Shown: positions 5,212-37,025, counted from the first letter of the stretch. The stretch is DNA of 64,000 bases from Ruminococcus champanellensis 18P13 = JCM 17042 (GCF_000210095.1 NC_021039.1:1640107-1704106); one strand, 5' to 3'. A program made the numbers and translations. The notes: generated by a model from the letters alone, not told the origin.

Positions 5212-5490
5212 ATGTACGAAGACAAGACACTGGTATGCAAGGAATGCGGAAACGAATTCGTATTCACCGCTGGCGAGCAGGAATTCTACGCTGAAAAGGG
5301 TTTCGTAAATGAGCCCCAGCGCTGCAAGGCTTGCAGAGATGCAAGAAAGAATGCAAACAAGTCTGACAGAGAAATGTTTGAAGCTACTTGCGCACGCTGC
5401 GGCGGTGTAGCTCGGGTTCCGTTCAAGCCCAGAGAAGATCGCGCAGTATACTGCAGCGATTGCTTTGCAAAGATGAAGGAAGCTGAATAA
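5212..5490 (+). CDS. Small zinc-ribbon protein
   Basis: 92 residues with four CxxC pairs: CKEC (residues 9-12), CKAC, CARC and CSDC. The pairs are spaced like two zinc ribbons, a layout of the probable zinc-ribbon (zf-trcl) family found in many Clostridia. The role is not known; zinc binding is inferred from the cysteines. GAGGT lies ahead of ATG 5212. A perfect terminator follows directly, so it is probably transcribed alone. The 100 bases upstream, after the sigH-like gene, hold no promoter that I can recognise. Confidence 0.78.
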   Translation: MYEDKTLVCKECGNEFVFTAGEQEFYAEKGFVNEPQRCKACRDARKNANKSDREMFEATCARCGGVARVPFKPREDRAVYCSDCFAKMKEAE

Positions 5491-5499
5491 TCGACTTCT

Positions 5500-5532
5500 A
5501 AAGCGCAGCCAGTCGGTTGCGCTTTCCTTTTT
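5500..5532 (+). terminator. Rho-independent terminator
   Basis: 11-bp stem 5500-5510 / 5515-5525 (AAAGCGCAGCC with GGTTGCGCTTT, one G-U pair), loop AGTC, then CCTTTTTC. Confidence 0.92.
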
Positions 5533-5596
5533 CTTTCATTTCATTCGTTGAATAAAAGCATGCCCATGGCGCATGCTGAAACAGGAGGCGAAAATC

Positions 5597-5800
5597 ATGA
5601 CAATTACAAAGGATACGATCATCGGGGATATCCTGGATGAGGATTTTGAGGTTGCCCCCTTCTTCCTGGAGATGGGGATGCATTGCCTTGGCTGCCCCTC
5701 TGCAAGAGGCGAGTCTGTTGGAGAGGCTTGCAGCGTTCACGGGGTTGACCCGGATGAGCTGGTCGCAAAGCTCAACGCACATTTCGCAGCGAAGAAGTAA
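5597..5800 (+). CDS. DUF1858 domain protein
   Basis: 67 residues starting MTITKDTIIGDIL, with the MGMHCLGCPSARGE motif in which two cysteines (CxxC) are diagnostic of DUF1858, a small domain also found at the N-terminus of ScdA/RIC-type proteins and beside hybrid cluster or redox proteins. A redox or iron-sulfur related role is likely but unproven. AGGAGG at 5583-5588 sets the ATG at 5597; an earlier in-frame ATG at 5573 has no ribosome site. A terminator follows at once. Confidence 0.85.
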   Translation: MTITKDTIIGDILDEDFEVAPFFLEMGMHCLGCPSARGESVGEACSVHGVDPDELVAKLNAHFAAKK

Positions 5801-5806
5801 CCAGGC

Positions 5807-5834
5807 GGGCGGCAGATTGCCGCCCTTCTTTTTT
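5807..5834 (+). terminator. Rho-independent terminator
   Basis: 8-bp stem GGGCGGCA / TGCCGCCC, loop GAT, then TTCTTTTTTC. Confidence 0.92.
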
Positions 5835-5861
5835 CAATTCATCAATCGGAGGTTCTGACAT

Positions 5862-6551
5862 ATGCTTACTTTATCCCCTCGGCTGCTGGCATGCGCCCGC
5901 CTGGTGTCCGGTGCCGGATGCTGCTGTGATGTGGGCACGGATCACGTTTATCTGCCGGTTTACCTGTTGCAGCAGGGCATCTGCACCAGTGTGATTGCTT
6001 CGGATATCGGCGAGGGCCCGCTGCAGTATGCCCGACAGACAGCAGCCCGGTGGGGGCTGTCTGACCGGATCCGCATCCTTCTGTCGGATGGCTTGCAGCA
6101 GGTGCCGGATGCCGGCATCACGGACGTGGTGATTGCCGGTATGGGAGCGGAAACCATTTGTGGCATTCTGGAGCATGCAGACTGGCTCCAACGGGGCACC
6201 AACCTGATTTTGCAGCCCATGACCAAAGCTCCCTTGCTGCGCAATTGGCTTGCGGAAAACGGCTATGGTTTGTGCCGGGAGATTCCGGTGCAGGAGGAGC
6301 AGCGGCTATACACGGTGATGCAGGCGCAGTATACCGGGGAAAAGCGGAACATATCTCCTCTGGAGGCTCGCGTCGGTGCGCTGGATCAAAGGGATCCCGT
6401 TGCCCGGGCGTATGTACAGGCGCAGACGGATGCACTGGAAAAAAAGGCGGCAGGATTGACCCGGGCAGGACTGGATGCCAGGTCGGAAGAAGCACTGGCG
6501 GCGGCATTGACTGCCTGGGCACAGGGAAAGGAGCAGGAGCATGCAGGTTAA
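5862..6551 (+). CDS. trmK: tRNA (adenine(22)-N1)-methyltransferase
   Basis: 229 residues. A Rossmann-type SAM methyltransferase with CCDVGTDHVYLPVYLLQQG as the SAM loop, IASDIGEGPLQYARQTA as motif II and VIAGMGAETI as the catalytic region. These fit TrmK (YqfN), which methylates A22 in tRNA. A C-terminal helical arm follows, as in the family. It overlaps the Nif3-like gene by 11 bases, and trmK followed by a Nif3 homologue is a common Firmicutes pair, which supports the assignment. Confidence 0.92.
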   Translation: MLTLSPRLLACARLVSGAGCCCDVGTDHVYLPVYLLQQGICTSVIASDIGEGPLQYARQTAARWGLSDRIRILLSDGLQQVPDAGITDVVIAGMGAETICGILEHADWLQRGTNLILQPMTKAPLLRNWLAENGYGLCREIPVQEEQRLYTVMQAQYTGEKRNISPLEARVGALDQRDPVARAYVQAQTDALEKKAAGLTRAGLDARSEEALAAALTAWAQGKEQEHAG

Positions 6552-12427: not shown

Positions 12428-13687
12428 ATGACATATGCACAGACAATGAAATACATCAATCACTTTGGGCACACAGGGGCACCGGTGACGGATCTGAGCC
12501 GGATGGAAACACTGCTGGATGCGCTGGGGAATCCCCACCGGCAGTTGAAATTCGTCCACATAGCCGGTACAAACGGCAAAGGCTCCACCCTGACCTACTG
12601 TGCGGAAGCCTCCATGACCGCCGGCATCCAAACAGGCATGTTCACCTCTCCCTATATTCTGTGCTACGAGGATCGGATTCGGGTCAATGGGGAGAATATC
12701 CCCCGGGATGCGCTTTGCCGACTGGGGGAGCAGGTGCGGGAGCATGCGCCGGAGCTGCCCTTTTCCCAGTTTGAGATCACCCTTGCGATCGCTCTGCTGT
12801 ATTTTCTGGAGCGTCAGTGTGAGCTGGTGTTTCTGGAGGTGGGCATCGGGGGGCTGCTGGACGCTACCAACGTGGTGGATCCCCTGGTAAGCGTCATCAC
12901 CTCCATTTCCCTGGATCACACCGCCCTGCTGGGGAATACGGTGGAGCAGATCGCCTGGCAAAAGGCAGGGATCATCAAGCCCCATCGTCCGGTGGTGCTG
13001 GCACCTGCCAATCTGCCGGAGGTATGCAGCGTGGTGCGAAACCGGGCGGCGGTGGTGGATGCCCCTTTGCAGGAGGCGGAGCAGATTCCTTTGGAGATCC
13101 GGCGGCAGGATATTGCCGGGGCATCCTTTGTGTATGGAGACAGACCCTATGAAATTTCCATGCCTGGACTGCATCAGATCCACAACGCCATGACTGCGGT
13201 CTGTGTGCTGCATGTGCTGGAGCAGCTGGGATATCCCATTTCAGAGGAAGCCATCCAACAGGGGCTTTTGCATGGGAAGGTGCCTGCCCGGATCCAGGTG
13301 CTGTGCCGGGAGCCTTTGACCCTGCTGGACGGGGGGCATAATCCGGACGGCACAGAGGCGCTGCGGGATACGCTGAACGCCTGCGCTCCCAAGCCCATAT
13401 ACGGGGTGGTGGGGCTGATCGACACCAAGGATTATCAGCATGCTGTGGGGAATCTGGAGCAGGTGCTGGAGCAGGCATTTTGTGTGGATGGATACGCACC
13501 CAACAGTGTGCCGGCGGAAACCCTGGCGGAGGCATTCACCCGCATTTCCGCAATGCCCCTGCCCTTGAAAGCGGCTTATACCAAAGCGGTGCAGCTTGCA
13601 AAAGCCCATGGGGGAACTGCTGTGATCTGTGGTTCTCTGTACCTTGCCAGCCGGTTTTTGGCAGAGATGGATATGAACAAAATGTGA
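12428..13687 (+). CDS. folC: Folylpolyglutamate/dihydrofolate synthase
   Basis: 419 residues. The Mur-ligase-like ATP-binding loop HIAGTNGKGSTLTY (about residue 41) and the folate-binding TSPYILCYEDRIRVNG are diagnostic. The enzyme adds glutamate to folates, retaining them in the cell, and in bacteria often also makes dihydrofolate from dihydropteroate. VGIGGLLDATNVV and SLDHTALLG complete the family pattern. GAGGTGAGAAC lies just before the ATG. No other folate gene is in the window. Confidence 0.95.
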   Translation: MTYAQTMKYINHFGHTGAPVTDLSRMETLLDALGNPHRQLKFVHIAGTNGKGSTLTYCAEASMTAGIQTGMFTSPYILCYEDRIRVNGENIPRDALCRLGEQVREHAPELPFSQFEITLAIALLYFLERQCELVFLEVGIGGLLDATNVVDPLVSVITSISLDHTALLGNTVEQIAWQKAGIIKPHRPVVLAPANLPEVCSVVRNRAAVVDAPLQEAEQIPLEIRRQDIAGASFVYGDRPYEISMPGLHQIHNAMTAVCVLHVLEQLGYPISEEAIQQGLLHGKVPARIQVLCREPLTLLDGGHNPDGTEALRDTLNACAPKPIYGVVGLIDTKDYQHAVGNLEQVLEQAFCVDGYAPNSVPAETLAEAFTRISAMPLPLKAAYTKAVQLAKAHGGTAVICGSLYLASRFLAEMDMNKM

Positions 13688-30662: not shown

Positions 30663-30687
30663 TCCCAATCATCAGAACACAGCTGTG

Positions 30688-30875
30688 CTGTGGAGAATGT
30701 GGTTGCACCCTGCGTGCATGAAAAGAGAATGCGGTGAAAAACCGCAGCAGTCCCCGCTACTGTGAGAGGGACGAACCTCCGTGTTGATGTAAATCAGGTC
30801 ACTGTGCCGGCATGCCGGTGCGGGAAGGCTATGCGGACAAGTAGGATGAACTCAAGCCAGGAGAACTGCCACATT
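30688..30875 (+). ncRNA. Cobalamin riboswitch
   Basis: All conserved landmarks occur in order: AGAGAATGCGGTGAAAAACC, GCAGTCCCCGCTACTGTGAG, GGTCACTGTGCC, GCGGGAAGGC, GGATGAACTC and the B12 box AGCCAGGAGAACTGCC (30855-30870). Adenosylcobalamin-type riboswitches lower expression of downstream genes when B12 is plentiful, usually by termination or by hiding the ribosome site. It precedes six overlapping genes that look like B12 capture and import. This strongly implies that cobalamin, or a close corrinoid, is the cargo. Confidence 0.95.
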
Positions 30876-30918
30876 CTATCCCAATTAGTCCGGAGGAGAA
30901 TGGCGGAAGCTCAGTCAT

Positions 30919-30950
30919 CCGCCCTGCATCTGCGCTGCGGGGCGGGGCTT
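30919..30950 (+). promoter_or_regulatory. Possible expression platform hairpin
   Basis: CCGCCC (30919-30924) can pair with GGGCGG (30939-30945) and is followed by GGCTTTGGTTT, a poor T-run. It may be a weak terminator or an element that affects translation of the first gene, whose start is at 31012. No clear classic terminator was seen. Confidence 0.4.
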
Positions 30951-31011
30951 TGGTTTCATGGCGCTTTCGGCGGCACTTTTCTTTTCCGGCGGATTTATCG
31001 GAGGAATAAAT

Positions 31012-31944
31012 ATGAAACACACACACAAGCAGATCCTTGCGGCTTGTGCCGCGGCAGCCTGCATGGCATTTGCAGCTATGCCGGTATTCGCAGAAGAAAC
31101 GGCGCCCCAGGGTTATGTGACCGTTGCAGTGGAGAAATTTACCACTGGCGAGGGCTACATTCTGGAGCCGGTAGAAGTGCCCTTTTATGAAGGAGAAACC
31201 GGTACAGCCCTGACGGAGCGTGCCCTTGGGGCTGAGCAGATCAACGAAGGGGAAGGCGTAGGCGCCTACATCGCTTCCATTGCTGATCCGGATGGGGGCA
31301 AGGGAACCGTTCCGGAGGTGATCCGCAATGCAGTGGAAGCCGCAGGCGGTACATTGGCGGAGGAGCGCCTCACACCGGGCTGGCTTGCGTCCTATGACTA
31401 TGCAAGCACTGCCGGCTGGATGTACATGGTCAACAATGAGGTGCCTTCCTTCGGCATCGGGGATTACACGCCCCAGGACGGGGACGTATTGCGCTGGACC
31501 TTCAGCATTTACGCATACGGAGCGGATCTTGGTATTGACACCTCTTACATGTCCGAATGGGGCGGTGCAGCAGCCATCACACCGGCGGCAGACCGGGATG
31601 CACTGACCAAGCTGTTGGCAACAGCAAAGGATGCCCAGGGCGAAGGAGTTCGGGCTGCTTACGATGCGGCAGTTGCAGTTATCAGCGATGTGACCGCAGA
31701 ACAGGCAAAGCTGGATGAGGCGGCAGCAGCACTGCAGGCGGCTATGGAGGCAGAACCGGTCGTTACCACTGTGACCACCACAACAGAGGCTGCAGCGGAG
31801 ACCACCGGCACGACCGTGACTACGACAGCAACGGGTACAAGCACCCCGGCACCCAAGACCGGAGATCATACCGGTGGACTGGTGCTTACCGGATGCGGCG
31901 TGCTGGCACTGGCTGCACTGTGTGCAAAGAAGCGGCATGCGTAA
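31012..31944 (+). CDS. Wall-anchored DUF4430 protein (transcobalamin beta-domain-like)
   Basis: 310 residues. Signal peptide 1-27; a DUF4430-like domain about 35-170 with AGWMYMVNN (134-142) and DGDVLRWTF (156-164), motifs shared with the C-terminal domain of transcobalamin; a helical FIVAR-like segment about 190-247; a Thr-rich linker 250-279; and a C-terminal PKTGD sortase-like signal (281-285), hydrophobic segment and KKRHA tail. It should therefore be covalently or membrane anchored at the wall. First gene after the B12 riboswitch; GAGGAATAAAT gives the ribosome site. An in-frame upstream ATG at 30958 has none. Confidence 0.82.
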   Translation: MKHTHKQILAACAAAACMAFAAMPVFAEETAPQGYVTVAVEKFTTGEGYILEPVEVPFYEGETGTALTERALGAEQINEGEGVGAYIASIADPDGGKGTVPEVIRNAVEAAGGTLAEERLTPGWLASYDYASTAGWMYMVNNEVPSFGIGDYTPQDGDVLRWTFSIYAYGADLGIDTSYMSEWGGAAAITPAADRDALTKLLATAKDAQGEGVRAAYDAAVAVISDVTAEQAKLDEAAAALQAAMEAEPVVTTVTTTTEAAAETTGTTVTTTATGTSTPAPKTGDHTGGLVLTGCGVLALAALCAKKRHA

Positions 31945-33301
31945 AGGGATACTGATCGCAGGCATATCAGCAGCGTTGCTGCTTGGTATGCCTCGCTTCG
32001 TTTGTGGGGCTTCTTACGAGCAGGAGCTGTCCGATGCAGCCGCATGGCACCGACAGCATGAGCAGGACAAACCGGGTGCTTCGGAGACGGATTGGTTCAC
32101 CTTTGCAGTGGAGCGTGCGCCATCCTTACAGGAACAGGGGGATCCGGCAGCCCTGGAAGCCTATGTGGCACAAAAGTATCAGACCGCCCAAAAGCTGAGC
32201 CCTGCTAAGGCAACCGAATGGCACCGGATCTCTCTGACTCTCCGGGCTATGGGAGTGGATCCTGCCGGATGTGCAGATGGAACGATTGACCTCATCGCCG
32301 ACGGCACATACAACCGGGGCAACACCGCTGCTTTGGATCGGCAGGGGTTGACCGGTTGGATCTGGGCGCTGATTACCCTGCACAGTGGAGCGTATGCAGT
32401 GCCTGCCAATGCGCACGACACGGAGGCGGACATGATCCGGCAGCTTTTGTCCAGGCAGTTGCCGGATGGTGGCTTTGCCCTTGCGGGCACCAGTGGAGAT
32501 GTGGATGTGACCGCTTCTGTTGTGGCGGCTCTGGCGCCTTTGTATGAGGCGGACAGGGTGTATACCTATACCCGGCGCTCTGATGGGGCTGCATGCGCTG
32601 TCACCATCCGGCAGGTGGTGGATGCCTGCATGGAACTGCTGTCTGAACGGCAGTTGGAAAGCGGCGGCTTTGCAAGCTACGGCACGGAAAATGCGGAAAG
32701 CGCAGCCCAGGTGATCCTGGCGTTGCTGAGTCTTGGACGGGATCCCCGGCTGGATGCTGCATTTCAGGCAGGGGGGCATAGTCCGGTGGATGCCCTGTTG
32801 GCATATCGGCGGCAGGACGGAGGCTTTGCCCACATTGCTTCCCAGACTGGCAGCAATGTGATCGCCACCAACCAGTGCATGCTGGCGCTGGCAGGGTTGC
32901 AGCGGCTGGATGCGGGTATGCAGTCTGTGTATGAGTTGACGGATGTGCCCCTGCGTCAAGAGCCGGAGCATACGGCTCCGCCGACGGTCACAGAGTCCAT
33001 CGGGACGGATGCACCAGAACCGGAGGAAACCATGCCGCCGGAGGAAACGGATATCCCGGCACAGACCTCCGATGATGCAGAAGAAACCACTGCCGTGCAG
33101 ACAACCGCCAGAACGGAGTCGGTCGGCGGAACCGTGACAGCATATACCCAGACACAAGTCGTCAATACAGGTACCGGTATCCGCACTGCCCCTGCGGAAG
33201 CAACAGAGCAGTCCCATCCGGCAGTCACCTGTTCCTGGTGGGTGCTTGGACTTGTCTGCATGGCACTGGGAGGCTGCATGCTGTGGGAGAAAAAAGAATG
33301 A
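31937..33301 (+). CDS. Membrane-anchored alpha/alpha-toroid protein (intrinsic-factor-like)
   Basis: 454 residues. Signal peptide about 1-25; an alpha/alpha toroid about 50-335 with repeated QLPDGGFALAG, QLESGGFASYG and YRRQDGGFAH motifs followed by helices such as DVTASVVAALAPL, the pattern of prenyltransferase/squalene-cyclase-type repeats and of the cobalamin-binding barrel in intrinsic factor; a Thr/Glu/Pro linker about 340-430; and a membrane segment 433-450 with a KKE tail. It overlaps the DUF4430 gene by 8 bases and is followed by a second DUF4430 gene. Cobalamin binding is inferred from this context. Confidence 0.8.
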   Translation: MRKGILIAGISAALLLGMPRFVCGASYEQELSDAAAWHRQHEQDKPGASETDWFTFAVERAPSLQEQGDPAALEAYVAQKYQTAQKLSPAKATEWHRISLTLRAMGVDPAGCADGTIDLIADGTYNRGNTAALDRQGLTGWIWALITLHSGAYAVPANAHDTEADMIRQLLSRQLPDGGFALAGTSGDVDVTASVVAALAPLYEADRVYTYTRRSDGAACAVTIRQVVDACMELLSERQLESGGFASYGTENAESAAQVILALLSLGRDPRLDAAFQAGGHSPVDALLAYRRQDGGFAHIASQTGSNVIATNQCMLALAGLQRLDAGMQSVYELTDVPLRQEPEHTAPPTVTESIGTDAPEPEETMPPEETDIPAQTSDDAEETTAVQTTARTESVGGTVTAYTQTQVVNTGTGIRTAPAEATEQSHPAVTCSWWVLGLVCMALGGCMLWEKKE

Positions 33302-33828
33302 AAACGAAACAAATTGGGATCGGTTTTTGCGTGATTGGTGTCGCCCTGTGCGTGGTACCGTGGATCGTACACAATGTGCAGACTCCGGCAGAGTATTACG
33401 GTGCATCCTCCGGTGAGGACACAGGGCTGCATGCCTCCATCTCCATTGATTGCAGCCGGGTATACGGGGCTTGGGATCAGCTGGATCCGGCACTGCAAGC
33501 CGGCGGCTATTTTCCGGAAAACGGGCAGATCCTGCCGGAGGAGCAGGTTTCCTTTTCGGATGGGGATACGGTGTTTGATGTGTTACAACAGGTGACCCGG
33601 CACCACCAGATTCAGATGGAGTATCAAAGCACCGGCGCATCTGATGTGTACGTACAGGGCATCAGCTACTTATATGAGTTCTCCTGCGGTGCCCAGAGCG
33701 GCTGGATCTATCTGGTCAACGGCAAGGCGGCGGATCGGGGATGCGGTGCCTATGTGTTGTCCGACGGAGATGTGATCGAATGGCGGTACATCGTTTCCGA
33801 AGCCCAGTGGCAGGAGGCTGGCATATGA
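33298..33828 (+). CDS. Membrane-anchored DUF4430 protein
   Basis: 176 residues. An N-terminal membrane anchor (about 7-25) and a DUF4430 domain about 82-168 with SGWIYLVNG (134-142) and DGDVIEWRY (156-164). Three cysteines at 52, 130 and 149 may form a disulfide. DUF4430 is the family of the C-terminal beta-domain of intrinsic factor and transcobalamin, which closes over cobalamin. Its start overlaps the toroid gene stop (ATGA), so the two halves of a transcobalamin-like pair are made together. Confidence 0.85.
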   Translation: MKTKQIGIGFCVIGVALCVVPWIVHNVQTPAEYYGASSGEDTGLHASISIDCSRVYGAWDQLDPALQAGGYFPENGQILPEEQVSFSDGDTVFDVLQQVTRHHQIQMEYQSTGASDVYVQGISYLYEFSCGAQSGWIYLVNGKAADRGCGAYVLSDGDVIEWRYIVSEAQWQEAGI

Positions 33829-34730
33829 GACGGGATCATCCCCTGGTGCTGCTGTGCTACTTTGGCACAGTGCTGGTATTGAGTATGCTGACCATGCACC
33901 CCCTCTGGATCGGCACAGCGTTCGTTTCCGGCTGTGTGGTCAGCGGCGCCCTATCCGGCTGGCATGCGCTTGTAAAGCGGCTGCCGGGACTGGTGCTCTT
34001 TGCCCTGGGAGTGGCGCTGCTGAACCCTCTGATTTCTCACAATGGGGTCACGCCTCTGCTGTTTTTCCGGGGTAATCCCATTACTCTGGAGGCACTTTGC
34101 TACGGGGCGGTTCTGGGCGGACTGCTCAGCAGTCTGCTGTTGTGGGGGGGTATTTATAGTCACCTGGTGGACGGGGAAAAGATCCTGTGGCTGCTGGGCG
34201 CAGTGCTCCCCCAGGCTGCATTGCTGTTTTCGGTGGCAATGCGGTATCTGCCTGCCTTGCAGCGCCGGTACCAGCAGTTGCACCGTCTGCACACATGTAT
34301 GGGGCTTTACCGGCAGGACACCTTTGTGCATCGTTTGAACGGCAGCTTTCAGCTCTTATCCGTTCTTCTGGGCAGTGCACTGGAGGATGCGGTGCAGACT
34401 GCCTATACCATGCGTGCCAGAGGATACGGCAGCGGAAAGCGTACCCGGATGAGTCTGTACCGGATGCGGAAACGGGAATGGACGCAACTGGGTTGCATCC
34501 TGCTGCTGACGGTGTGCATCGGAATTTTGCTGCACCGGGGCGCTATGCAGGCGCAGTTTTACCCCCGTATGGAATTTCAACTTGGAGCACGGGAACTGGC
34601 AACTGCCGCAGGGTTCGGCTTGCTGCTGCTTTTGCCCGGATTGGAGGAAGGAGGCGCATGGATCAGATGGCACTTGTGGAAACCACAGCACTCAGCTTTA
34701 CTTATGCCGGAGCGGCAGTCCCGGCGCTGA
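33825..34730 (+). CDS. ecfT: ECF transporter transmembrane component EcfT
   Basis: 301 residues with about five to six membrane segments. TMRARGYGSG near residue 200 is the Ala-Arg-Gly type coupling motif of EcfT that contacts the ATPases. EcfT is the scaffold that links the substrate-binding S component to two EcfA subunits. It overlaps the preceding DUF4430 gene by 4 bases and the EcfA gene by 73 bases, the longest overlap in this operon. Dedicated EcfT beside its own S and A components is typical of group I ECF importers. Confidence 0.88.
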   Translation: MRRDHPLVLLCYFGTVLVLSMLTMHPLWIGTAFVSGCVVSGALSGWHALVKRLPGLVLFALGVALLNPLISHNGVTPLLFFRGNPITLEALCYGAVLGGLLSSLLLWGGIYSHLVDGEKILWLLGAVLPQAALLFSVAMRYLPALQRRYQQLHRLHTCMGLYRQDTFVHRLNGSFQLLSVLLGSALEDAVQTAYTMRARGYGSGKRTRMSLYRMRKREWTQLGCILLLTVCIGILLHRGAMQAQFYPRMEFQLGARELATAAGFGLLLLLPGLEEGGAWIRWHLWKPQHSALLMPERQSRR

Positions 34731-36298
34731 AGGATGTGACATTGGCTGTTCCCCGGGGCAAGATCCTGCTGCTTTGCGGCGGTTCCGGTTCCGGGAAAAG
34801 CACCCTGCTGCGGTTGCTGAAAGCAGAATGTGCCCCCCATGGCAGTCGGGAAGGGGAGATCCGGTTTGACCCGGCAATTTTCCAGGCAGGCAAGCCGGAG
34901 CCGGGGGCAGTGGGACTTATCGGACAGGATCCGGAGGGGCAGATCGTCACGGATCGGGTCTGGCAGGAGCTTGTCTTCGGGCTGGAATCCTTGGGTATGC
35001 CCCAATCCGAGATGGCAGTACGAGTCGCAGAAACCGTCAGTTACTTTGGACTGGAGTCCTTGTATCGGCGGCGGACGGATACGCTGTCCGGAGGGCAGAA
35101 GCAACTGGTAAGCCTGGCATCCGTGTTTGCCCTTGCCCCTCAACTGTTGCTGCTGGATGAGCCTACCGCCCAGTTGGATCCGGTGGCGGCATCCGACTTT
35201 TTTGCCACCCTGCAGCGGCTGAACCGGGAGCAGGGGACGACCATCCTTTTGTCAGAGCACCGATTGGAGGAGGCGTTGCCCATGGCGGATCTGGTGGGAG
35301 TGCTGCATGGGGGCAGACTTTGCTGCCTGGCACCGCCTCAGCAGGCGTTGGAGCGGCTTCGGGGAACGGAGGCTTATGCAGTGCTTCGTTCCGGCATGCC
35401 GGCAGCGGTTCAGGTATTTGACCATCGGGTGCAGCCCTGTCCTCTGACCATCCCCCAGGGTCGTGCTGTTCTGGAGCAAATGCCGACAAAGCCGGTGCCG
35501 ATCCCGGAGCAGACTGTGCCGGAGGGAGCGGCGTGCTACCAACTCCGGGATGTGTGGCTTCGGTACGAAAAGCGGCAGGAGGATGTGCTGCGGGGGGTGG
35601 ATCTGACCCTGCCGGAGGGTACCTGTACGGCGATTCTTGGTGGGAACGGCAGCGGAAAGTCCACCCTGCTGCAGGTGCTGTGCGGGATGCTCTCGCCGGA
35701 TCGGGGCTCGGTGAAGGTGTGGGGGAAGAAGCTGCGCCCGGGCAGCATACAGGCGGCGTATCTGCCCCAGAAGCCTGCATTGCTGTTTTGTGAGGATACC
35801 CTGGATGCGGACTATACCGCCTATAGCAGATGTCTGGGGTTGAATGAGCAGCAAAGAGAGCAGCGGCTTGCGGAGCTGGAGCCTGTGCTGGCATTGCGGG
35901 AACTGCTGAAGCAGCATCCCTACGATCTTAGCGGCGGTCAGCAACAGCGTGCTGCTCTGGGAAAGCTGTTGCTGGCGAAGCCGAAAATTTTACTGTTGGA
36001 TGAACCCACAAAGGGCATGGATGCAGCCGCACGGCAGTCCTTGGGTCAGCAGCTGCGTGCTCTGACCGGACAGGGCGTTACCATTGTGCTTGCCACCCAT
36101 GACCTGGATTTTGCCGCTTTGTATACGGAGCTTTGCGGCATGCTCTTTGACGGACAGCTTTCGCCCTTGACCCCCAGCCGGCAATTTTTCCGGCAGAACC
36201 GGATCTACACCACGCCGGCGCACCGGATGGCAGCGTCCTGCCTGCCGGAGGCTGTCACCTGCGGAGACGTGCTTGCCGCCCTGGAGGTGCAGGCATGA
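34658..36298 (+). CDS. ecfA: Tandem-fused ECF ATPase (EcfA1-EcfA2)
   Basis: 546 residues with two complete ABC ATPase domains. Domain 1: Walker A GGSGSGKST (41-49), Q90, signature LSGGQKQ (143-149), Walker B LLLLDEP (163-169), His201. Domain 2: Walker A GGNGSGKST (328-336), Q371, signature LSGGQQQ (424-430), Walker B ILLLDEP (444-450). Both sites look active. They power vitamin import with EcfT. ATG 34658 is chosen because GGAGG lies nine bases before; the frame stays open far upstream inside ecfT. Confidence 0.93.
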   Translation: MDQMALVETTALSFTYAGAAVPALKDVTLAVPRGKILLLCGGSGSGKSTLLRLLKAECAPHGSREGEIRFDPAIFQAGKPEPGAVGLIGQDPEGQIVTDRVWQELVFGLESLGMPQSEMAVRVAETVSYFGLESLYRRRTDTLSGGQKQLVSLASVFALAPQLLLLDEPTAQLDPVAASDFFATLQRLNREQGTTILLSEHRLEEALPMADLVGVLHGGRLCCLAPPQQALERLRGTEAYAVLRSGMPAAVQVFDHRVQPCPLTIPQGRAVLEQMPTKPVPIPEQTVPEGAACYQLRDVWLRYEKRQEDVLRGVDLTLPEGTCTAILGGNGSGKSTLLQVLCGMLSPDRGSVKVWGKKLRPGSIQAAYLPQKPALLFCEDTLDADYTAYSRCLGLNEQQREQRLAELEPVLALRELLKQHPYDLSGGQQQRAALGKLLLAKPKILLLDEPTKGMDAAARQSLGQQLRALTGQGVTIVLATHDLDFAALYTELCGMLFDGQLSPLTPSRQFFRQNRIYTTPAHRMAASCLPEAVTCGDVLAALEVQA

Positions 36299-36975
36299 GG
36301 GGGCATGTGCAGCGGTGGCTGTTGATGCTGGGGGCGGCTGGCATGCTGCTGTGTGTAGTATGGCTGCAAAATACCCTTGCAGCTTCTGTGCTGATGGTAC
36401 TGTTGACCTGCGGAGTGATGCTGCTGCGGATTGAGCATCGAGCCTGGCAGGCAGGGGAACTGGTGGTGCTGGCGGTGCTGGTGGCAATGACTGTGGCAGG
36501 CAGATTGGCTTTCGCCTGGACCCAGTCCATCAAGCCGGTGGCAGCCCTTGTGATCCTGACCGGCTTGTATCTGGGGCGGGAATCCGGCTTTCTCTGCGGT
36601 GCTTTGGGAGCACTGCTGTCCAATTGCTATTTCGGTCAGGGCATGTGGACTCCTTTTCAGATGCTTAGCTGGGGGCTGATCGGCTACGGCGCCGGAATCC
36701 TTGCCCGTTATGCCTGGTTTCATAGGCTGCCGGTGCTGTTGCTCTATGGCGCATTGTCCGGCATCTTCTTCTCTCTGGTGATGGATATCTGGACGGTACT
36801 CAGTGCCCAAGGGGAGATCACCCTTGCCCGGTATGGTGCGGCGATCTTGACCGCTGCGCCGGTGACTGCGGTGTATGCGGTGAGCAATGCAGCATTCCTG
36901 CTGGTGTTGACCAAGCCCATCGGCAGGCGGCTCACCCGGATCTGTACCAAGTACGGACTGTTCACACAAACCTGA
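36295..36975 (+). CDS. ECF transporter S component, probably for cobalamin
   Basis: 226 residues, about six membrane helices. SIKPVAALVILTGLYLGRES followed by SNCYFGQGMWTPFQMLSWGL is characteristic of S components of the CblT-like and related ECF families, which bind the vitamin in the membrane. The riboswitch and the transcobalamin-like genes upstream point to cobalamin or a precursor corrinoid. It starts inside the ecfA stop codon (ATGA) and is the last gene of the unit, followed by a long perfect terminator. Confidence 0.85.
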   Translation: MRGHVQRWLLMLGAAGMLLCVVWLQNTLAASVLMVLLTCGVMLLRIEHRAWQAGELVVLAVLVAMTVAGRLAFAWTQSIKPVAALVILTGLYLGRESGFLCGALGALLSNCYFGQGMWTPFQMLSWGLIGYGAGILARYAWFHRLPVLLLYGALSGIFFSLVMDIWTVLSAQGEITLARYGAAILTAAPVTAVYAVSNAAFLLVLTKPIGRRLTRICTKYGLFTQT

Positions 36976-36979
36976 ATCC

Positions 36980-37025
36980 CTATGCGGGATGCGTCTATTC
37001 CGGGCGCATCCCGCATAGCTTTTAT
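36980..37025 (+). terminator. Rho-independent terminator of the B12 operon
   Basis: Perfect 14-bp stem CTATGCGGGATGCG / CGCATCCCGCATAG (36980-36993 with 37005-37018), 11-base loop, then CTTTTATGG. Confidence 0.9.

Follow-up and report, generated by a model that had tools for sequence, protein, structure and literature searches.

The operon found in a 64,000-nucleotide stretch of the Ruminococcus champanellensis 18P13 genome (henceforth the window) is, with a probability of about 85%, a riboswitch-controlled system for cobalamin/corrinoid capture and import in a B12-auxotrophic Ruminococcus. It connects a widespread family of surface proteins with cobalamin riboswitches, with an S-component whose role in B12 transport is proven, and with the folds adopted by the human B12 carriers. 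Among gut genomes without B12 synthesis, only about one in two was found to have a known B12 transporter (PMC6593275). This kind of system was already predicted in 2007, when Burroughs et al. proposed that surface proteins with toroid and SLBB domains act with CbiO/CbiQ-type transporters in B12 scavenging (PMC1796856), and what the R. champanellensis operon adds is better evidence. As far as we could find, the apparently new elements are the link to the riboswitch, the CbrT-type S-component and the near-perfect co-occurrence, as well as a fusion of S-component and DUF4430, the modelled folds and a membrane hairpin that explains the split of the capture module.

Operon organization

The features of the operon are collected in Table 1. 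The aptamer matches the full RF00174 model (1-189, cmscan) with 100.4 bits and an E-value of 6e-24, above the gathering score of 31.5 bits, and a scan with RF00174 finds this single copy in the whole 2,573,208-base (2.57-Mb) genome. Six genes, P1 to P6, follow it, with successive overlaps of 8, 4, 4, 73 and 4 nt. The complete cobalamin riboswitch and the six overlapping genes reported in the preliminary description of the window are thus confirmed by both the covariance score and the ORF coordinates. Two elements come in addition to that description. The first is a hairpin downstream of the aptamer, with 8 G-C pairs in its stem and a weak T tail, which is retained when the leader RNA is folded (z -1.8) and is a candidate expression platform. 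The second is the terminator that closes the operon.

Table 1. Features of the R. champanellensis operon, in positions of the window.
Feature	Position	Strand	Basis
Cobalamin (B12) riboswitch aptamer	30683..30887	+	RF00174, full length
Terminator-like hairpin, between the aptamer and P1	30918..30946	+	11-pair stem, leader fold
P1, secreted DUF4430-type protein, putative sortase-type C-terminus	31012..31944	+	PF14478, half model
P2, alpha/alpha-toroid surface protein with signal peptide and C-terminal membrane anchor	31937..33301	+	Homologues, fold of sister model
P3, membrane-anchored DUF4430 (transcobalamin beta-type) protein	33298..33828	+	PF14478
P4, EcfT transmembrane coupling subunit	33825..34730	+	PF02361 CbiQ, neighbourhood
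P5, EcfA, two fused ATPase domains	34658..36298	+	Two ABC_tran
P6, S-component related to CbrT	36295..36975	+	PF07155, 6fnp_A match
Intrinsic terminator closing the operon	36980..37018	+	17-pair stem and T-rich tail

Surface proteins

P1 and P2 each carry a signal peptide and a C-terminal hydrophobic segment, and P3 has a single hydrophobic segment, at its N-terminus. P3 matches DUF4430 (PF14478) in Pfam with an E-value of 7.8e-17, and the signature Y-x-x-G-I...Y-E...G-x-x-S-G-W...V-N is conserved over 33 homologues. P2 yields zero Pfam matches above cut-off, and the profile of its toroid family matches squalene-hopene cyclases (E 4e-13). The hydrophobic segments and the PF14478 match agree with what had been proposed for these two proteins, i.e. 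a toroid and a DUF4430 domain, each with a membrane anchor. Secreted domains of the DUF4430/transcobalamin beta type are present in P1 and P3, with an alpha/alpha toroid adjacent to them in P2.

P1 is the least certain part of the system. Its match to PF14478 (E 1.9e-10) covers the second half of the model, and this half domain is what would link the protein to the ligand. The wall signal scores below threshold, with 18.2 of 23.5 bits for NPXTG and 14.3 of 15.9 bits for LPXTG, so that of the DUF4430 domain and wall signal first ascribed to P1 the former stands, on half a model, and the latter appears only as a sub-threshold match. Secreted proteins occupy the same operon position in seven other loci, and the four of them scanned with Pfam show no DUF4430 match. 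P1 is probably a wall-attached outer protein of DUF4430 type.

Split and fused putative capture modules

In a sister species P2 and P3 correspond to one protein of 631 residues, whose toroid is 70% identical to that of the window. An alignment of 14 toroid-DUF4430 fusions (alignment A1) displays a single layout: the signal peptide and the toroid come first, a Thr/Ser-rich linker leads to a membrane helix, and a short basic loop joins this helix to a second one, which is followed by DUF4430. The ATGA overlap of P2 and P3 in the window (33298-33301) falls exactly in the short basic loop of this hairpin, and therefore each half retains one membrane helix. The two modules are indeed encoded as separate surface proteins in the ORFs of the window, as the preliminary description had it, but the split is not stable across relatives, since the sister species has them fused. 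Natural splits occur elsewhere, for example in five other loci, and on the Latilactobacillus curvatus plasmid p1_CACC879 the genes for an LPXTG-anchored toroid and a membrane-bound DUF4430 protein lie ahead of those for EcfT, EcfA and S; a split unique to R. champanellensis is ruled out by these many split relatives.

The split in the window may be a recent fission, a retained ancestral state or a sequencing error. An AAAAAA run (33290-33295) lies directly 5' of the ATGA junction, and the reading of P2 and P3 could be altered there by slippage or by an error in sequencing. It is possible, albeit doubtful, that a one-base sequencing artefact or a recent frameshift, perhaps bypassed by slippage on this run, produced the split and that the working protein is fused: the sister protein is fused, only one base position separates the frames of P2 and P3 at 33290-33301, leaving them one base from a fusion, and in the toroid tree the window falls (support 0.78) within a clade whose other members are fused. 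However, an overlap of the ATGA type is an ordinary signal for coupling, natural splits are seen in L. curvatus and in more distant relatives, and a fusion and a fission together cost as much in the same tree as two fusions. A working protein in one piece would concern the split alone, and is compatible with B12 capture and import by the operon.

Structural comparison with human B12 carriers

At the sequence level, a profile search between the toroid or DUF4430 and transcobalamin (TC) or intrinsic factor (IF) gives nothing significant, the best hit being the TC beta domain with an E-value of 0.075, and single-sequence searches of the PDB with either module return no useful match. The folds were compared through an AlphaFold model of the fused sister protein, built without ligand from an 89-row alignment of the surveyed loci, which reaches a pLDDT of 84.3 and a pTM of 0.64, with about 95 for each of the toroid and DUF4430 domains. 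Its 15 best PDB matches all correspond to TC, IF or haptocorrin (HC) and span both domains, with E-values between 5e-8 and 2.4e-6; for the TC beta domain taken by itself (5no0) the TMt is 0.73, and prenyltransferase-type toroids rank below TC, IF and HC. A second model, of a natural toroid-DUF4430 chain without the membrane hairpin (a segment of locus L141, pLDDT 89.7), retrieves the same top 15 entries with E-values from 5e-11 to 4.5e-9, and nothing in a viral structure library matched at E 0.001. These predicted structures support TC/IF folds for the toroid and DUF4430 modules, in line with the fold relationship originally suggested.

The predicted closure around the ligand is not reproduced in the models; in these two ligand-free predictions the domains are placed differently from the holo carriers, with rmsd values of 11-13 and 22-24 Å. 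The domains of human TC, when produced separately, assemble only with cobalamin (PMC5599065), which sets a precedent for assembly from two chains.

Transporter, host and ligand specificity

P4 scores just over the Pfam cut-off for CbiQ (PF02361, E 1.4e-5), and an adjacent EcfT is kept in most relatives. P5 contains two ABC_tran stretches (E 3.8e-57), which also match ECF_ATPase_1/2 under their equivalog cut-offs, and P6 belongs to PF07155. Pfam thus agrees with the earlier assignment of EcfT, a fused EcfA and EcfS; the operon holds a CbiO-like ATPase and a CbiQ-like permease, and both are kept in relatives. Among PDB sequences the sole significant match of P6 is 6fnp_A, that is CbrT (E 1.2e-5), and a 38-row profile of operon S-components finds 6fnp_A at 6.8e-21, followed by a next best hit at 3.5e-5. 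The 6FNP structure is that of ECF-CbrT, for which B12 transport is proven (PMC5997447). The homology of the S-component to CbrT supports a CbrT-like importer; KEGG-based work had already listed cbrT and cbrV in Ruminococcus (PMC9306216).

Other gene fusions are found among the relatives. EcfA and EcfS form one chain of about 830-950 residues in nine loci, and a single 668-aa ORF (L122:3248-5251) joins an ECF S-component (PF07155) with DUF4430, so that transporter and putative capture module are naturally fused there.

Concerning the host, MetH is encoded with its Pterin_bind, B12-binding and S-methyl_trans domains, the BtuR adenosyltransferase is present, and PduO, CbiD and CobS were not found in the genome, a combination that fits B12 salvage. 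On the two synthesis steps checked, CbiD and CobS, the host is without B12 synthesis and looks like a B12 auxotroph with a B12-dependent MetH.

Import of another corrinoid or precursor (cobinamide, pseudo-B12) or of cobalt, instead of cobalamin itself, is unlikely. Cobalt transporters are also found under cobalamin riboswitches (PMC3766115), the EcfT scores as CbiQ, and both known families of B12 transporters import cobinamide too (PMC6593275); against this, the S-component is CbrT-like, the DUF4430/toroid modules suit a large corrinoid rather than a metal ion, and the host is without CbiD or CobS for using a bare precursor. Complete corrinoids other than cobalamin are possible ligands. A plain cobalt importer was rejected on account of the CbrT-like S-component.

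Distribution across genomes

DUF4430 is found in 103 of 199 genomes of the family, and homologues of P2 in 58 of them. In a wider set of 399 genomes of the phylum, toroid/DUF4430 matches are present in 77 and the S-component family in 115. The S family is found in 76 of the 77 toroid/DUF4430 genomes versus 39 of the 322 others (Fisher p 4e-51), and both lie at most 12 kb apart in 65 of the 76. The preliminary description had also proposed a survey of riboswitch co-occurrence. With Rfam, a cobalamin-class riboswitch is recognised in 23 of 51 wide fetched loci, about half, several of the negatives ending at contig ends; the 23 all lie on the toroid strand and 21 of them are upstream. No other vitamin riboswitch reaches threshold in the fetched loci, and the complete loci L109 and L112 have no cobalamin riboswitch recognised by Rfam. 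Further cobalamin riboswitches are found in L215 and L217, and L210 holds a fragment at a contig end. These data support a link of the gene set to cobalamin riboswitches well beyond chance, as well as to one S-component family. Some relatives are surface proteins of very large size with additional regions, and P1 looks attached to the wall, which might suggest that toroid and DUF4430 serve in adhesion or in the cell wall and share the operon by chance. This is highly improbable in view of the near-perfect co-occurrence with a single S-component family, the natural S-component/DUF4430 fusion, a fold match specific to B12 carriers and the cobalamin riboswitches at the loci.

Some loci carry several aptamers. 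L217 has a tandem pair of cobalamin riboswitches (5280-6009) ahead of the toroid gene and one more downstream (12587-12739), and L216 and L129 likewise contain two or three within one locus. In the riboswitch-less leaders, a regular-expression search for B12 boxes returned mostly noise, the exceptions being an AdoCbl-II-like leader in L110 and boxes in L210 and L217. The L110 leader (839-962) scores under the threshold of Rfam, as might a variant that the model covers poorly, and shares the blocks GCAGTCACTACCGT and TCGCTCGTC with the AdoCbl-II-like leaders of L102 (11490-11570) and L105 (10866-10943). Toroid/DUF4430 relatives with 43% and 28% identity are also encoded in two records labelled "Bacteriophage sp." (MT837027.1:574-2799 and MT835727.1:11751-13058, respectively), possibly mislabelled bacterial DNA.

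Proposed mechanism

From the riboswitch and the hairpin that follows it, scarce cellular cobalamin would lead the leader to permit expression of the operon. P2 and P3 would then be exposed on the outside of the membrane, each anchored through a single transmembrane helix, as the alpha and beta modules of a TC/IF-type protein cut at the cytoplasmic loop of the membrane hairpin. Their folds suggest that toroid and DUF4430 capture corrinoid outside the cell, where free B12 would bridge P2 and P3 as it does the separately made domains of human TC, closing the module around the ligand. By homology to the proven system, the captured B12 would pass to the CbrT-like S-component P6, with import driven by the P4/P5 motor, while P1 may concentrate or relay the ligand. 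Substrate binding in ECF transporters has been ascribed to the S-component itself (PMC5997447). We give even odds to an ECF importer that is equipped here with an outer capture module of its own, namely a clam-shell of two chains which B12 assembles and which hands the ligand to the S-component.

Comparison with known systems

The operons of Burroughs et al. share with the present one the secreted DUF4430/SLBB domains, the alpha/alpha toroid, the CbiO/CbiQ-type genes and a second paralogous SLBB protein, with B12 scavenging as the proposed role. That paper mentions no riboswitch, its accessible part names no S-component, and it stresses the fusion, whereas in R. champanellensis toroid and DUF4430 form two chains, each anchored in the membrane (PMC1796856). 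With this prediction and the presence of the gene set in many Firmicutes, calling the system distinctive, as was done at first, was an overstatement. A literature search by title and abstract, which may miss later experiments, returned no bench test of a bacterial DUF4430 protein for B12.

ECF-CbrT of Lactobacillus delbrueckii has a homologous S-component and an EcfT/EcfA motor. Its locus is nrdJ-cbrS-cbrT-pduO, and the accessible part of the report describes no surface capture proteins (PMC5997447), whereas R. champanellensis has both ATPase domains in one chain and encodes surface proteins ahead of the transporter. BtuG and BtuH/DUF4465 of the Bacteroidetes also capture B12 at the surface ahead of a transporter, but they belong to other protein families and feed an outer-membrane receptor (PMC6143338, PMC8941943).

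Human transcobalamin, intrinsic factor and haptocorrin have the two folds in common with the bacterial modules, and the toroid-then-beta order with the fused relatives. Both domains share a single chain, as in the TC/IF family, in the sister species and not in the window. The human carriers are single soluble secreted chains taken up by receptor-mediated endocytosis, whereas the bacterial proteins are membrane-anchored beside an ECF importer. The 2007 proposal includes the acquisition of the animal B12 carriers from Gram-positive bacteria (PMC1796856), and the whole of it, bacterial origin of the animal carriers included, can now be put to a direct test in relatives that are amenable to experiment, for instance Latilactobacillus curvatus.
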